A stretch of 64,000 nt of DNA, from assembly GCA_017510525.1 (NCBI GenBank), contig JAFWNC010000005.1:1-64000 (forward strand), read 5' to 3'. This document shows, piece after piece, positions 2,561-11,732 of the stretch. The notes beneath the pieces were generated by a model. That model was given only the letters and a program-made list of their open reading frames with translations. It had not been told where the DNA came from and did not search any database. Both the position numbers and the translations under genes were made by a program. This DNA is from Clostridia bacterium. GTDB taxonomy: Bacteria > Bacillota > Clostridia > TANB77 > CAG-508. The stretch's first letter is position 1. Every line of letters starts with the position of its first letter.

Positions 2561-2611
2561 TTATGCATTCTTTCCATGACAATTTTTGTATTTTTTACCA
2601 CTTCCACATGG
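2561..2611 (-). other. Attachment site attL: displaced secA 3' end
   Basis: Read on the minus strand this encodes a second SecA tail, [17 protein letters not shown]-stop. It matches the end of the real secA at 11682-11732 at 45 of 51 positions; 2580-2611 against 11701-11732 match at 31 of 32. The 3' end of the target gene has been duplicated by site-specific integration, so the DNA between the copies is the inserted element and secA keeps an intact tail supplied by it. The 31/32 segment is the best candidate for the crossover core. Confidence 0.8.
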
Positions 2612-2863: not shown

Positions 2864-4141
2864 TTAGTATGCAATTTCATATTTTATAATATCATTTATT
2901 AAGTCTGAAGTCATAACTTTGTCAAAAGCAGTTGTAACATCTTTCTTATCTTCTTCTGTACTTGATATATAAAAGTTTTCAGTAGTTTCAACATACTTGT
3001 GTCCTAATATATCTGCAACATCTCTAATTTCAACTCCATTCCTTAAATTAGTTGTTGCATAACTTCCTCTTAAATCATAAAACCTGCAATCCTCAATACC
3101 TAACTCTTTATGAATTATCTTAAATGGATAGTTTAATATATTTCTTCCCACATATTTTCCATTAGGTCTTGTAAATACTAAATTTGCAGTATTCATATGA
3201 AGAATATTTCCTGTATTCTCAATAATTCTTTTTTCAATTAACTTTCCATTTTTTCCAATTATATCTTCAAAATAATAAGTTATATAATCAGATCCATATA
3301 GTTTCTTTAAATATTGTTGTTTCTTCTTAAAATTCATTAAGGCTTGATATAAAGTTGGACTCATATATATTTGTCTTGTTCCATTTTTAGTTTTAGTTGT
3401 TCCCATATACCATCTACCTTTTCCATCATCAGGTTTATCATATACAGTATGCTTAACATTTATAATTCTGTTTTCAAAATCGATGTCATCCCAAGTTAAG
3501 CTACAAACTTCTCCTGTTCTCATTCCTGTATAACAAGCTGTAATAAAAGCACAAGTAAATACATCATCATCTTTAAATCGTTCTAAAATTGTGTTTATTT
3601 CATCTTGATTATAAAGATGTTTTTCAAACTCTACTTCATCCTCTATTTTAGGCAGTCTTAATGTTACTGCTGGATTATATCTTATAAATCCAAATACATC
3701 TGTTGCTAACCTAAAACTTGTTTTTAATACCTTCAAAATATTATTAAAATATGATTTCTTATAATTGTATTTATTGCAAAGCTCTACTATAAAAGAATTT
3801 AACTTAACACTTGATAAAGCACTTAATCTATACTTTCCAAGTTCTGTTTTCAAATATTTATCCATTATAGTTTTATAAGTTCGTCTTGTATTGTATTTTA
3901 GAGTGGTTTCACAATAATTTTCATACCAATAATCTAGATAATCACTAAAAGAAATTGTCGATTCCTTAAAGTTTAATCCTGTATTTAAATATTCTGCATA
4001 AGCTAGATTTCCAGCTTTTATTGCTTCTTCTTTTGTTTCAAACCCAGATTTATTTACAAATTTTCTTTTTCCATCTACTTTAGCCACTTCAAATTTATAT
4101 TGATAATATTTACCTCGTCTTTGAATAGTGACATTTCCCAT
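2864..4141 (-). CDS. int: Tyrosine recombinase/integrase 1
   Basis: 425 aa, full length for a phage/ICE-type integrase. Residues 1-55 are the arm-binding domain (RGKYYQYKFEVAKVDGKRKF); a SAM-like core-binding domain follows to about 165, then the catalytic domain. Visible catalytic residues are Arg in TGMRTGEVCSL, Lys in TTKTKNGTRQ, Arg in YDLRGSYAT, His in LGHKYVETT and the nucleophile Tyr in ENFYIS. The usual HxxR histidine is replaced by Tyr (YDLR). The gene follows the xis-like gene by 5 bp, and its 3' end faces attL. It is one of two complete integrases in the element, and I cannot tell which one uses the secA site. Confidence 0.9.
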   Translation of the reverse strand: MGNVTIQRRGKYYQYKFEVAKVDGKRKFVNKSGFETKEEAIKAGNLAYAEYLNTGLNFKESTISFSDYLDYWYENYCETTLKYNTRRTYKTIMDKYLKTELGKYRLSALSSVKLNSFIVELCNKYNYKKSYFNNILKVLKTSFRLATDVFGFIRYNPAVTLRLPKIEDEVEFEKHLYNQDEINTILERFKDDDVFTCAFITACYTGMRTGEVCSLTWDDIDFENRIINVKHTVYDKPDDGKGRWYMGTTKTKNGTRQIYMSPTLYQALMNFKKKQQYLKKLYGSDYITYYFEDIIGKNGKLIEKRIIENTGNILHMNTANLVFTRPNGKYVGRNILNYPFKIIHKELGIEDCRFYDLRGSYATTNLRNGVEIRDVADILGHKYVETTENFYISSTEEDKKDVTTAFDKVMTSDLINDIIKYEIAY

Positions 4142-4146
4142 AGACT

Positions 4147-4392
4147 TTATCTTTCTCCATCTTCATATTCAGATAATCTTTTAACATTATCTATATCAGA
4201 TAGATCGTTCCCCTCATTTTGTTTTAGGAAGTCTTCTAAAGCAGATTTTGGCACTCGTATGCTTTTTAACTTAAAAGCCTTTAATTTTCCTTTTCGTATT
4301 AATTCATAAACATAATTTGGGCTTGAGTGTAATATTTTAGCTATTTCTTGAGCTGTATATACTAATTTTTCTTCTTTTACTATTTGTGTCAT
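4147..4392 (-). CDS. xis: Excisionase-like HTH protein
   Basis: 81 aa with a MerR/excisionase-type helix-turn-helix (HTH_17): VYTAQEIAKILHSSPNYVYE followed by LIRKGKLKAFKLKSIRVP, the recognition helix and wing. This size and position directly upstream of an integrase is typical of the directionality factor that pushes recombination toward excision. It sits between the relaxase (12-bp gap) and integrase 1 (5-bp gap), so the three genes are very probably one operon. The acidic C-terminal tail (EGNDLSDIDNVKRLSEYED) is not part of the fold. Confidence 0.8.
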   Translation of the reverse strand: MTQIVKEEKLVYTAQEIAKILHSSPNYVYELIRKGKLKAFKLKSIRVPKSALEDFLKQNEGNDLSDIDNVKRLSEYEDGER

Positions 4393-4404: not shown

Positions 4405-5385
4405 CTATCTTTCTCTATTTTTTCTATTTCGTTCATCCTTTTGGATTTTCTCAATAATATCCTCTGGAACTTTCTTTATAAGTTTTTCATATTTTTGAAC
4501 TTGATTTTGCATTAGTCTAATTCTTTCATTTACTTCTATATCTTTGTTTTGAATTTTCTCTTTTAAATCAGAATTTTCTTCAGCAAGTTCTTTATTGTCC
4601 TCTTTTTGAATATAAACTCTTTCTTCAAGTTCATTTATATAATCGTTATATGAATTTACTTTTGCTGAAAATTTTTCTGATTTTGGAACAAATTCTGAAA
4701 GTAAAGTTATAGCTTCTTCCTTATTCTTTTTCATTCCTATCATGTTGATATTATTAATTGTTTTTAATAACTGATTATATAAGTTATCTAAATTATCAGC
4801 TAACTTAAACAACCAAGTTGGAATATGCTTTCTTTTTGTTTCTTGAGCTGATTTTCCTCTTTCAAGTTCATTCCATCTTTCGTGCATATAATTATAGTAT
4901 CTTGTTTGCCATTCTGAAAGGCTTTTTTGATTACCAAGAATACTTTTAGCTGATAGCTTTCCATCTTTATTTATAGGGCAAAATACTAAATGCATATGAG
5001 GTGTTGCCTCATCCATGTGTACTACAGCTGATATTATTCTATCTTCGCCAATTTCTTCTTTCATAAATTTAACTGCCCTTTCAAAATATTCTCTTTGTTC
5101 TCCTTTGCTTAATTTATTCATAAATTCAGGAGAAGCTGTTATAAGTGTTTCTACTAACTTGACACTATCTTTTCTTGTTTTACAACCATATTCTTTTATT
5201 AAATCTTTTATTTTTCTTGAATATGTGTATTGTGGTGCCTGTATGATATGATAATTCTCTTTGGATCTATTCATATCTATATCTGGATTACTTTTATATG
5301 CCTCTTTTTTTCTTTCATTGTGTCTTTCACATCCAGCAATGGCACCACCTTTGTCTTTTTTAAATCGCAATATTGTGTATGCCAT
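4405..5385 (-). CDS. mobV: MobV-family relaxase
   Basis: 326 aa of the Pre/Mob (MobV) relaxase family, which nicks oriT and pilots the strand during mobilization by a conjugative helper. Motif I is seen as CERHNERKKEAY with the downstream NPDIDMNRSKENY; the metal-binding motif III is VVHMDEATPHMHLVF (HxDExTPHxH). Residues 100-200 complete the catalytic domain, and a coiled-coil C-terminus (ELEERVYIQKEDNKELAEEN) replaces the longer tail of plasmid Mob proteins. A matching oriT lies 227 bp upstream. There are no conjugation channel genes, so the element is mobilizable rather than self-transmissible. Confidence 0.9.
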   Translation of the reverse strand: MAYTILRFKKDKGGAIAGCERHNERKKEAYKSNPDIDMNRSKENYHIIQAPQYTYSRKIKDLIKEYGCKTRKDSVKLVETLITASPEFMNKLSKGEQREYFERAVKFMKEEIGEDRIISAVVHMDEATPHMHLVFCPINKDGKLSAKSILGNQKSLSEWQTRYYNYMHERWNELERGKSAQETKRKHIPTWLFKLADNLDNLYNQLLKTINNINMIGMKKNKEEAITLLSEFVPKSEKFSAKVNSYNDYINELEERVYIQKEDNKELAEENSDLKEKIQNKDIEVNERIRLMQNQVQKYEKLIKKVPEDIIEKIQKDERNRKNRER

Positions 5386-5421: not shown

Positions 5422-5541
5422 CACATTTTGATGACGATAGTGACGCTAATTTTATATAGGACTGCTCCATCAAAATGTGAGAACACTCATATGCTTTCTC
5501 GCCTGTTAAATATTATCTTGCCAAAGGCAAATAATATTTAA
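5422..5541. repeat. Two inverted repeats between oriT and mobV
   Basis: CACATTTTGATG (5422-5433) is repeated inverted at 5468-5479 with a 34-bp loop. A second hairpin at 5506-5541 has TTAAATATTAT arms with GCC/GGC at its tip, 16 paired bases and one bulge. Both lie in the mobV leader. They may serve mobV regulation or be part of the transfer origin. Confidence 0.55.
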
Positions 5542-5611
5542 CATTCTCCTTTTGAAAAATTTGAAGTATCGTCATAAGAAAGAGCTTCCATTTTTTCAAA
5601 ATCGCATTTAT

Positions 5612-5634
5612 GAGTGTAACACACTACACTTTTT
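5612..5634 (-). other. oriT: MobV-type origin of transfer (oriT)
   Basis: The minus strand reads AAAGTGTAGTGTGTTACACT, which follows the pMV158-type oriT (AAAGTATAGTGTGTTATACT) with compensating changes in both arms of the inverted repeat. In that family the nick falls after TAGTGTG, here between 5622 and 5621. It lies between the RepA-like gene, whose stop codon it touches, and the relaxase gene, the usual place for a MobV oriT. The nick position is transferred from the family. Confidence 0.8.
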
Positions 5635-6691
5635 ACAAAAGTTGTGTGCCAGATGTTCCCTCTGGATTTCCTTTCAATGACGATTCATGTGGTATAGTTT
5701 TACCGTCATCATCGTCATTGCCGTCAATATCTTTTTTCAAATTTACTAAACGAGATGTGCTTGTCCTTGATGTCTTAAAACAAATTTTATTATCAAATAA
5801 AATTGTTTTACTATACTCGTTTAATAACTTTGTAAGATATTGCGGTGTTATATCTTTTTCATCTAAAGAAGTAAGAAGTTCTGTTGCTGTGCCTTGCCAC
5901 TCCCCTTTTTCGTTAACAAAAGATATAACATTATAGATAATCTCTGGAGCATTTTTCATTTCAATATCCTTTTGAAATGATCTTTCTAGTAAGTTCCATC
6001 TGCATTCTTCAAATCTCAATGTGAAAGTTTGATATTCAACATCTCTACCTGTAACAAATAATGTTGCTACTGAATCATCTCTAGATTTCTTTTCTAGTAT
6101 AAATGTTGTATCGCTACTTCCCATTATTCCTGTTGTTCCAGAAATTCTATTAAATACATCACTATCATCTTGTTTCCTTAGATGGTGTACTAATATTACA
6201 GCTATCTTATTTTTGTCTGCGAATTGTTTTAATAAAGATATATCTGTATAATCATTAGAATAATTTATATCGTTATTTTGCTTTCTTACTTTCTGAAGAG
6301 TATCAATAACTATTAATTTTGTATTAGGATATTTTTGTAATGTCTGTTCCAATTGAGATATTAGACCATTAGCAATTTTGTTTGACTCTATTGATATATG
6401 AAAATTAGAGTCTATATCATCAGTTAGCTTAAACAATCTCTTTTGAAGTCTTTGATAAGTGTCTTCTAAAGCAAGATATAAAACATCACATTTATTTGTT
6501 TTTAAGTTCCATATTTCTTCGCCCTTTGAAACTTTTATACAAATATCTAACATTAACCAGCTTTTTCCTACTTTAGGAGCTCCACAAAATATATGAAGTC
6601 CTATTGGTAAAATATCTTCTATTATAAATTCTACTTCATCTAAAGATGTATATAATAGATTATCTGCATTTACTATTTTTAAGTCTTCCAA
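5633..6691 (-). CDS. RepA-like AAA ATPase/helicase
   Basis: 352 aa. Residues 25-230 form a RecA-like ATPase (AAA_25/RepA type): Walker A GAPKVGKS, Walker B KLIVIDTLQ, then a sensor strand VILVHHLRK and a serine-rich GTTGIMGSSDT motif. The C-terminal 100 residues look like a small winged-helix segment (ATELLTSLDEKDITPQYLTK). Such proteins are replicative helicases of small plasmids and are common in mobilizable islands, where they may support replication of the excised circle. The start is TTG at 6691, 5 bp after AGGAGG. The terminator of the non-coding unit lies just upstream, so the gene may depend on read-through or a promoter in that terminator region. Confidence 0.8.
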   Translation of the reverse strand: MEDLKIVNADNLLYTSLDEVEFIIEDILPIGLHIFCGAPKVGKSWLMLDICIKVSKGEEIWNLKTNKCDVLYLALEDTYQRLQKRLFKLTDDIDSNFHISIESNKIANGLISQLEQTLQKYPNTKLIVIDTLQKVRKQNNDINYSNDYTDISLLKQFADKNKIAVILVHHLRKQDDSDVFNRISGTTGIMGSSDTTFILEKKSRDDSVATLFVTGRDVEYQTFTLRFEECRWNLLERSFQKDIEMKNAPEIIYNVISFVNEKGEWQGTATELLTSLDEKDITPQYLTKLLNEYSKTILFDNKICFKTSRTSTSRLVNLKKDIDGNDDDDGKTIPHESSLKGNPEGTSGTQLL

Positions 6692-6729
6692 GTGTTCCTC
6701 CTTTCTAGCAAGTATGCATTTGTAAGCAC

Positions 6730-6764
6730 AAAAAAGGCTTCGTTATCATAAACGAAACCTTTTA
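6730..6764 (-). terminator. Intrinsic terminator of the non-coding unit
   Basis: Minus strand: AGGTTTCGTT pairs with AACGAAGCCT (10 bp, one G-U; 6735-6760) and is followed by TTTTTT. It ends the untranslated unit that begins at about 7274 and lies 39 bp upstream of the RepA-like start. Confidence 0.75.
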
Positions 6765-7274
6765 TTTATATCACTATTATTTGGCTATATTTATTATTTT
6801 CCCTTTTAGAGCCATAATTGATATGATGTTTCGCTTACTCTTACTGAAAAACTTCTTTGCTAACTTGCATTAAAATTTTTCTAAAAGAGATATCAGATTT
6901 TCTTACTTATCCACAGGGTACAATTTACTTGCAAAAAGCAAATCTTTAATAAGCCTAATAGTTTTTACACTTTTAGACATATAAAATATTGTACCTGTAA
7001 ATTAAATAAGATATCTGTTAGCGCTTACGACATCAATATTACTTCTTTACATTGGTTGGAGATAAATTACATATCCTATGATAAAACCAACACTGAGCCT
7101 GTGAGACTATGGGCTCCTTGAAACGAACTGGCTTCCGATCAGTAGGGAAAGTATTATCTTGCGATGTACTTTTTTTGCGTTCAACCACCTCAAATATAAT
7201 GTAATTCTGCGGCTCAACCTACAACAGGGAAATATCTACTATTTAATTTTTCAGTTGTATCCTTTATCGAATAC
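6730..7274 (-). ncRNA. Candidate large structured RNA, about 550 nt
   Basis: A consensus promoter on one side and an intrinsic terminator on the other bound about 550 nt without a credible coding frame. The minus-strand RNA can form many stems: a 10-bp hairpin at its 5' end (7253-7278); GAGCC/GGCTC (7095-7099, 7112-7116); GTTGG/CCAAC (7055-7059, 7087-7091); ACAGGTACAAT with ATTGTACCCTGT, one bulge (6988-6998, 6913-6924), enclosing a TTGC/GCAA hairpin (6929-6941); and CTCTTTTAG with CTAAAAGGG (6881-6889, 6801-6809) enclosing a 9-10 bp stem (6872-6881, 6846-6855). Parts of 7080-7240 are clearly GC-richer than their surroundings. Large ornate RNAs such as ROOL and GOLLD occur on mobile elements, but I cannot match this one to a known class. 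Confidence 0.6.
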
Positions 7275-7280
7275 AACTAT

Positions 7281-7309
7281 TTTATATCATCATTTTTTTA
7301 TTCTGTCAA
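7281..7309 (-). promoter_or_regulatory. Strong sigma-A promoter of the non-coding unit
   Basis: TTGACA (7304-7309), a 17-bp spacer and TATAAA (7281-7286) on the minus strand: the best promoter in the mobile element. The start point would be near 7274, inside or just before a 10-bp hairpin at 7253-7278. Confidence 0.75.
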
Positions 7310-7336
7310 CTAATTATGATGATTTTGTCAAAAATT

Positions 7337-10184: not shown

Positions 10185-11456
10185 CTATAAACTACTACAT
10201 ATTTCTTCAAATTTATCTGCTGTTTCATTTTCCATTTTTTGTGTTACTCTTACATAAATATTATAAGTAAAATCAATACTTCTATGTCCTAACCTTTTTG
10301 AAACAGCCTTAATATCTGCTCCAGATTCAATTAATTTTGTTGCGTGTGTATCCCTAAAATCGTGAAATCTACAAGGAATACCTAATTCATAATGAATTAC
10401 TTTAAATGGATATTTACAGCTATCAGTACCTTCATATACTCCATTTTTCTTTACAAATACAAAATCAACTTCTTCCAAATGTATTGGTATTTCAGAATAA
10501 GCATTTAATATTTTTATTTCTTGCTTATTATTATATGGATTTATAACGACCTTTTTATAATGCTTCATATATGTATCTCCATAATTATTTCTATTTTCCT
10601 CTTGTTCTCTTTTATACTCTTTTAAAGCATTTAATAAAGTTTCTCCAATAGGAATAGTTCTATAACTTGTTTGAGTCTTACAAGTTCCAAAATACCATAC
10701 GGTTGTTGAATTTCCACTTATGTGTCTTTTCTTTGTTCCACCATTTTGATTCTTTTTTAGTATGTTTTTATTAACTGAAATAGTTTTATTTCTAAAATCT
10801 ATATCATTCCATGTTAATGCAAATACTTCTGCAATACGAAGTCCTGTACAATATGCAGTTAAGAATGCATAATATACACAATGATTATTCTTAAACCTGT
10901 TAAGTATTAAATTTATTTCTTCATTTGTTAATATGTGAGCTGGATCTTCTGGAGGAATATCATATTTAGGTAATTTAATTCCAATAGCTGGATTTACTTT
11001 TATAAAATCATTCTCATAAGCATAAGTAAATGAACTTTTTATTACTTTCTTTATATTGTTAAGAAAATTTTTACTGAAAGATTTATCTACATACATTTTG
11101 TTTATAAAATCTTGCAATGTACTTCTAGTAATTTGAGAAATTTTATAATGACCAATATTTGGTTTTATATGATTTTTTACAATACTGCTATATGCTTCTA
11201 TTGTGTGATATTTGAGATTAATATGACAATGTTTTTCTAACCAATAATCTAATAAATCTGAATAACTCATGTCGCTTGGTGTAAAATCATGACCAGTATT
11301 CATATACTCATTAAAAGCTTTTATTCCCTCCTTTTCTGCTTCAGCCTTAGTCCTAAAACCAGACTTACTTGCAAACTTTCTTTTACCATCAATCTTTGCA
11401 GTTTCAAACTTATATTGATAGTATTTGCCTCTTTTTTGAATTGTTACATTCGACAT
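10185..11456 (-). CDS. int: Tyrosine recombinase/integrase 2
   Basis: 423 aa, complete. Arm-binding domain at 1-55 (RGKYYQYKFETAKIDGKRKF), core-binding domain to about 165, catalytic domain after that. Catalytic residues: Arg in TGLRIAEVFALTW, His-Arg in FHDFRDTHATKL (HxxR intact), His in LGHRSIDFT and Tyr in YNIYVRV. Its 5' end faces the secA junction 226 bp away, with a terminator and the right-hand 22-bp arm repeat between, the usual order for an integrase acting on the adjacent site. It is therefore the best candidate for insertion into secA. The arm domain is nearly the same as in integrase 1, while the rest is diverged. Confidence 0.9.
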   Translation of the reverse strand: MSNVTIQKRGKYYQYKFETAKIDGKRKFASKSGFRTKAEAEKEGIKAFNEYMNTGHDFTPSDMSYSDLLDYWLEKHCHINLKYHTIEAYSSIVKNHIKPNIGHYKISQITRSTLQDFINKMYVDKSFSKNFLNNIKKVIKSSFTYAYENDFIKVNPAIGIKLPKYDIPPEDPAHILTNEEINLILNRFKNNHCVYYAFLTAYCTGLRIAEVFALTWNDIDFRNKTISVNKNILKKNQNGGTKKRHISGNSTTVWYFGTCKTQTSYRTIPIGETLLNALKEYKREQEENRNNYGDTYMKHYKKVVINPYNNKQEIKILNAYSEIPIHLEEVDFVFVKKNGVYEGTDSCKYPFKVIHYELGIPCRFHDFRDTHATKLIESGADIKAVSKRLGHRSIDFTYNIYVRVTQKMENETADKFEEICSSL

Positions 11457-11519: not shown

Positions 11520-11606
11520 TATATTTTTGTTTTCAGTTTGTTTGCAACCTGCAAAGTCTTTATTTTAGATAGTTTTAGAGATTTTGATTACTTGTATGAA
11601 AACAAT

Positions 11607-11628
11607 TTGCAAACAAAATGCAAACAAT
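11607..11628. repeat. 22-bp direct repeat, right copy (arm-type site)
   Basis: Identical to 2731-2752. It lies 73 bp inside the right-hand core, between int2 and secA. Further TGCAAA units occur nearby at about 11550-11560. Confidence 0.6.
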
Positions 11629-11681: not shown

Positions 11682-11732
11682 TTATGCGTTTTTACCACAA
11701 CAATTTTTGTACTTTTTACCACTTCCACATGG
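11682..11732 (-). other. Attachment site attR within the secA 3' end
   Basis: The last 16 codons and stop of secA. They are repeated in diverged form at 2561-2611 with the same reading frame (GSGKKYKNC...GKNA-stop). Integration here replaces the end of secA with the element's own copy, so the gene remains whole. Confidence 0.8.

Follow-up and report, generated by a model that had tools for sequence, protein, structure and literature searches.

The mobilizable element and its leader transcript

The window, that is, the whole stretch of 64,000 nucleotides of contig JAFWNC010000005.1 analysed here, comprises an integrative mobilizable element (IME) of approximately 9.1 kb, integrated at the secA 3' end; the RNA under study lies within it. 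On the minus strand, the order is secA, int2, tnpV, cargo, an XRE regulator, the RNA, repA, mob, an HTH_17 gene and int1. This agrees with the mobilizable setting proposed in a preliminary description of this DNA.

11701 to 11731, minus strand: att repeat, original 3' end of secA
5633 to 6691, minus strand: repA, AAA_25/DnaB_C-like ATPase, start codon TTG at 6689 to 6691
4405 to 5385, minus strand: mob, MobV relaxase (Mob_Pre)
4147 to 4392, minus strand: excisionase-like HTH_17 protein
2864 to 4141, minus strand: tyrosine integrase int1, followed by the operon-end terminator (2864 to 2825)
2580 to 2610, minus strand: att repeat at the opposite end of the element, duplicating the secA 3' end

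The same insertion in secA, with its duplication, is observed in related genomes, and contig L043 carries two copies of the secA end. The two tyrosine integrases, one at each end of the element (2864 to 4141 and 10185 to 11456), are distantly related (approximately 42%) and conserved across genomes. A 23-bp perfect repeat, present inside both element ends (2730 to 2752 and 11606 to 11628), probably corresponds to integrase arm sites. The gap between repA and mob exhibits a 13-bp perfect inverted repeat and a small hairpin (5504 to 5543) and is a candidate oriT. In several related elements, the RNA is found directly after int2.

7281 to 7309, minus strand: promoter TTGACA-17-TATAAA, nearly unchanged in 17 close homologues
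6730 to 7275, minus strand: leader RNA of approximately 545 nt, with a start inferred approximately 7 nt past the -10 box
6732 to 6763, minus strand: intrinsic terminator, 13 pairs followed by Ts, whose 5' arm (6750 to 6758) is also the partner of the antiterminator strand

The promoter of the RNA matches the consensus at 11 of 12 positions, against 10 of 12 for the best site listed in the window by the promoter scan. The scanner demands a T at the sixth position of the -10 box, which is the sole reason why the TATAAA site went unlisted. This promoter, which is kept in the homologues, is thus indeed the strongest of the element, as had been claimed. The terminator is one of six terminator-like sites, with 0.9 expected. 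Its 13-pair stem and Ts (6763 to 6732) agree with the clear terminator previously described, and the approximately 545 nt between the inferred start and this terminator agree with the proposed size of about 550 nt. The lack of a credible reading frame also holds: the leader stretch contains no ORF of at least 60 aa, and neither a conserved short SD-preceded ORF nor a conserved leader peptide was found in it. In the antisense RNA search, no conserved sigma-70 promoter with more than 8 of 12 matches was seen against the leader. An inverted repeat, ATCATCAT/ATGATGAT, surrounds the -35 box in the window (7286 to 7320) and in its nearest relatives; it adjoins the XRE gene and is a possible operator.

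Distribution and types of the RNA

Type I comprises 17 copies (the window and 16 loci), which show 68 to 100% identity and share the promoter, the RNA and the terminator. These copies originate from MAGs of the window's own family and represent 13 distinct sequences. All 17 are located directly upstream of repA, with a short conserved stretch between the terminator and the repA SD (25 nt in the window). As this gap leaves no room for a promoter, the RNA constitutes the 5' leader of the repA-mob-xis-int operon, and read-through is required to reach repA, barring a promoter within the RNA. The terminator is located between the promoter and the rep gene with no other promoter in between, as in rep-leader attenuators.

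The leader is absent at a repA gene that is 71% identical (L064), and no comparable leader precedes the distant AAA_25 repA genes of the class. Upstream of one distant AAA_25 repA (L080), several long iteron-like direct repeats are observed, which are perhaps a replication origin. The type I RNA had no match in the phage collection or, by blastn, in the plasmid collection, which includes pLS20, and nothing related was found in viral contigs searched through repA and three DNA patterns. A sequence-structure model (R1) gave three matches of 27 to 28 bits in 391 genomes of the class; they were rejected, their E-values being at chance level, and the two that were inspected fall within or between host genes.

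A type I variant, used as query, revealed divergent copies matching only at both ends of the RNA. At these loci repA is missing, and the RNA has tnpV on its upstream side and a different MobV gene on its downstream side. A pattern of the 3' hairpin yielded further copies, including some in two genomes of another family of the order. Type II is defined by an inner core related to that of type I, type III by a different centre; both types precede mob in Tn4451-like transposons, just upstream of oriT-like hairpins. The RNAs of the family measure approximately 370 to 550 nt and precede the replication or transfer genes of mobile elements of several kinds, carried by gut bacteria. Most of the central domain is exchanged from one type to another, in contrast to the ends and the RBS-reading loop, which persist: all types retain the promoter position, the 5' hairpin, ACUGAAAAAUU, AAUUUUUCAGU and the loop AUGCARGUAWGC.

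By blastn, a type II copy matched five enterobacterial conjugative plasmids, from Salmonella, Klebsiella, Citrobacter and Enterobacter; complete genomes of E. coli gave no near match. In the two plasmids whose surroundings were read, both IncHI2, the RNA has an aac(6')-Ie/aph(2'')-Ia region on one side and mob on the other; the transposon is Tn4451-like and encodes a DUF4368 serine recombinase. The occurrence of this gut-Clostridia kind of transposon in IncHI2 plasmids of Klebsiella and Salmonella (L187, NZ_MG288680, 5460 to 12963; L188, CP123704) represents a cross-phylum transfer.

Some copies exhibit additional features. At L169 (6190 to 6370) and at L189, L190, L191 and L194, a row of three or four palindromic hairpins separates the type II RNA from the oriT-like region; this row is absent in L192. 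In type III (L167, L171, L187 and L193), a second copy of ACUG(A/G)AAAA just before the loop hairpin gives a long near-perfect hairpin, which could displace the 5' copy of that sequence. The copies in G291 (L172) and G241 (L170) are decayed or partial, and the match in G259 (L173), which has neither the promoter nor the long-range helix H2 (see below), was discarded as a false positive.

Folding, alternative pairing and loop complementarity

The minimum free energy of the window RNA is -137.1 kcal/mol, compared with -105.3 +/- 6.2 kcal/mol for dinucleotide shuffles (z -5.15), and the homologues gave z values of -5 to -8 in the shuffle comparison. The fold of the type I alignment lies 11.6 sd below column-shuffled alignments, and its consensus structure contains 113 pairs, with 97.5% of cells paired. 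Compensatory changes are observed in 22 of the 113 pairs, compared with 2 to 5 in controls whose partners were slid by 1 to 3 columns. The preliminary description, which had named a lack of covariation as grounds for abandoning a structured RNA, is thereby strengthened on this point, and the 5' hairpin and at least seven stems that it had described are recovered by folding. In representative type I sequences, G-U outnumbers A-C in the pairs by 74 to 9, which indicates that the sense strand acts as RNA.

7254 to 7277, minus strand: 5' hairpin H1, whose pairs covary in type II
7245 to 7255, minus strand: ACUGAAAAAUU, 5' strand of the long-range helix H2, a strand that is unchanged across all three types
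7055 to 7091, minus strand: hairpin H9, GUUGG...CCAAC
7019 to 7031, minus strand: core motif GUCGUAAGYGCUA, to which the type II core AAUAAGUGCUACAAAA is related
6846 to 6882, minus strand: conserved local hairpin presenting the RBS-complementary loop
6859 to 6870, minus strand: loop AUGCAAGUUAGC, consensus AUGCARGUAWGC, complementary to the repA pre-SD segment
6843 to 6853, minus strand: 3' strand of H2, common to H2 and the local loop-presenting hairpin
6828 to 6836, minus strand: antiterminator strand AAGCGAAAC, AARCGRAAC in homologues
6708 to 6717, minus strand: GCAUACUUGC, pre-SD target of the loop
6697 to 6706, minus strand: SD of repA, AGAAAGGAGG, upstream of the TTG start

In type II, H1 covaries between UGUAUU/AAUACA, UGUCAU/AUGACA and UAUCAUA/UAUGAUA. 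Most type III copies exhibit GCUGG/CCAGC at a place like that of H9.

AARCGRAAC, located approximately 70 nt upstream, provides a second complementary partner for the terminator's 5' arm, GUUUCGUUU, and this alternative pairing is present in 17 of 17 type I copies. Its nine pairs are intact in all 13 distinct sequences; three of them show one-sided changes, all within A-U, G-U and G-C. Shuffling of the intervening stretch produced a pairing as strong as the antiterminator in 4 to 27 of 2000 cases per sequence. The antiterminator (-14 to -18 kcal/mol) and the terminator (about -13 kcal/mol) are of similar strength, which fits the need of a switch. Type II exhibits the same layout; in three of its six copies (L189, L191 and L192), the antiterminator strand is interrupted by a mismatch or an insertion. 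The region of the type II core AAUAAGUGCUACAAAA also has 24 long-range pairs with a stretch including part of the antiterminator strand. The mutually exclusive pair is conserved in type I, mostly conserved in type II and absent in type III. As the type III copies lack an intrinsic terminator, attenuation is not universal in the family.

The loop complementarity was judged at the loci with a located downstream gene start; no such start was found for the two copies in G333. In front of repA, the sequence reads ...UACUUGC-UAGAAAGGAGG, and the segment 5' of the SD is complementary to the loop. The same is true of the pre-SD segments of the mob genes of type II, with GCAUACCUGC-AGGAAAGG, and of type III, with UUGUAUAUCUGC-GGAAAGG and UUGCUACCUGC-AAGAAAGG. 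All 15 rows pair at the core hexamer GCARGU/ACYUGC; at its R-Y position, type I copies have A-U or G-U, whereas types II and III have G-C. The same loop complementarity is found, with covariation, in three types and for two different target genes, repA and mob. At each of the nine loci tested, the gene directly downstream outranks all other SD-bearing genes for this pairing; these loci do not amount to nine independent events, since those within a type are related. In the window, repA ranks first among 61 SD-bearing genes for loop pairing, and ACYUGC occurs upstream of a single one of 69 SD-like starts, that of repA. With 6 bp and 2 more beyond mismatches, the window has the weakest pairing among the loci compared, and 62 of 5000 target shuffles pair as well as the window repA segment.

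Proposed function and comparison with known systems

Based on the promoter, the terminator, the leader position, the conserved alternative pairing and the conserved, covarying loop-RBS complementarity, we consider it probable that the RNA is a cis-acting leader of a new family, controlling the mobilization genes by attenuation in types I and II and by loop-RBS pairing in all types. RNA polymerase would start near 7275 and produce a compact RNA. In types I and II, the 3' end could then adopt two alternative folds. With AARCGRAAC paired to the 5' arm of the terminator, the terminator would not form and repA-mob-xis-int would be transcribed. With the antiterminator strand held elsewhere, transcription would stop at 6730, and in type II the 24-pair helix of the AAUAAGUGCUACAAAA region would serve as anti-antiterminator. 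In all types, the loop would pair just 5' of the SD of the first gene and set the translation of repA or mob; the effect would be activating with the SD left free next to the paired segment, as in repZ, and repressing with a steric block. As the 3' strand of H2 is common to H2 and the loop hairpin, the 5' end of the RNA may control the loop. We infer that these pairings form in cells. The terminated product of approximately 545 nt could also accumulate as a separate RNA, and the loop could equally act in trans.

Since approximately 545 nt exceed the need of a simple attenuator, a further function of the central domain is likely. We propose, more tentatively, that the RNA may represent a new class of large RNA switches, spread across tyrosine-integrase IMEs and Tn4451-like serine-recombinase transposons, in which the central domain senses a signal and licenses replication and mobilization. 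Candidate signals are a metabolite, a factor of the host or of a helper element, or the state of RNA polymerase. No Rfam riboswitch reached its gathering score with type I.

Processive antitermination is an unlikely alternative. In this case the nascent RNA, like Tn916 canT, pLS20 conAn2, HK022 put or EAR, would make the polymerase ignore downstream terminators. The RNA is of similar size (canT has 452 nt), would likewise act in cis, lies upstream of a DNA-processing operon and has a terminator just downstream (PMC11658703, PMC8955417), and the type III RNA persists without an adjacent terminator. However, the only T-tailed terminators of the window's sense operon are that of the leader and one after int1, which leaves little to antiterminate. 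Several terminators inside the controlled operon, as for canT and conAn2, are seen neither in the window nor at L040. The absence of type I from a plasmid collection that includes pLS20 also argues against this explanation, which would leave the loop-RBS complementarity unexplained.

It is improbable that the terminated RNA, once released, pairs in trans with the repA or mob mRNA through its loop or serves transfer directly. A strong promoter and a terminator of its own would suit such an RNA, the loop-RBS pairing is possible in trans, and there is a precedent in the sgm-sRNA of SGI1, which is needed for mobilization (PMC9299015). Nevertheless, the RNA is on the same strand as its target, and 5' of it, at every locus. 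Types I and II carry the terminator/antiterminator pair, and no SD-bearing gene of the window pairs better than repA.

The resemblance to ROOL and GOLLD put forward in the preliminary description stands as far as a structured, unannotated RNA on a mobilizable element is concerned, but a stand-alone RNA of that kind, with a scaffold-like role, is very unlikely. ROOL, GOLLD, OLE, HEARO and raiA are likewise large, folded and often on mobile DNA, and the size, the many stems, the mobile setting and the rumen/gut hosts are in keeping with them. In contrast, no model of Rfam 15, which includes these five, matched type I, L187, L192 or L193 at the gathering score or at an E-value of 10, so no known RNA was identified. 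Moreover, the RNA has a fixed place before repA or mob, the SD following at once for repA and further on for mob in relatives. Its strongest conservation is at the 3' end and points to the gene that follows. It also carries the terminator/antiterminator pair in types I and II and the loop complementary to the SD region.

A DNA-level element, namely a single-strand origin or a part of oriT folded as ssDNA in transfer, would suit the adjoining relaxase gene and the oriT-like hairpins just downstream of types II and III, but is most improbable, as the consensus promoter and the terminator flank the RNA exactly, G-U exceeds A-C, and RBS complementarity is meaningless for DNA.

The RNA family, its spread over elements with tyrosine and serine recombinases, and its complementarity to relaxase and replication gene starts were absent from Rfam and from the literature searched. 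IMEs are very common carriers of resistance genes, and the control of their own replication and transfer genes is little known; the word RNA appears once in a leading IME review (PMC5704250). A conserved leader able to pair with the start of a relaxase or replication gene is a concrete, testable control point. As the RNA is also present in an aminoglycoside-resistance Tn4451-like transposon of enterobacterial conjugative plasmids, its parts are open to ordinary reporters in laboratory strains.

In repZ of the IncI-alpha plasmid ColIb-P9, and in its IncB and IncL/M relatives, the loop of a far-upstream hairpin pairs with nucleotides directly preceding the SD of the first replication gene, and this pseudoknot activates. 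The leader described here is similar in that a distal hairpin carries a loop complementary to the nucleotides just ahead of the SD of the first gene, which the leader would control. It differs from repZ in its much larger size, in its target, namely repA or the gene of a MobV relaxase on clostridial mobilizable elements, and in that no conserved antisense promoter, no conserved leader peptide or coupled leader-peptide reading frame, and no sequence relation were seen.

The rep leaders of pT181, pIP501 and pAM-beta-1 exhibit a strong promoter, a long leader, a terminator before rep, an exclusive antiterminator and a central counter-transcript. The layout of promoter, leader, terminator and antiterminator is alike (PMC4981023), whereas the counter-transcript, central in those plasmids, is not evident here. 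The canT RNA of Tn916 is a structured cis RNA of approximately 450 nt that acts on transfer genes in an integrative element (PMC11658703); it is processive through several terminators, whereas the present leader combines one terminator with RBS complementarity. The sgm-sRNA of SGI1 is a non-coding RNA from the mobilization module of the island (PMC9299015), but it is a processed product and not the leader of the gene it would control. The parts of the proposed mechanism have precedents in the repZ pseudoknot, the rep-leader attenuators, canT and sgm-sRNA (PMC10724649, PMC11658703, PMC8955417, PMC9299015).
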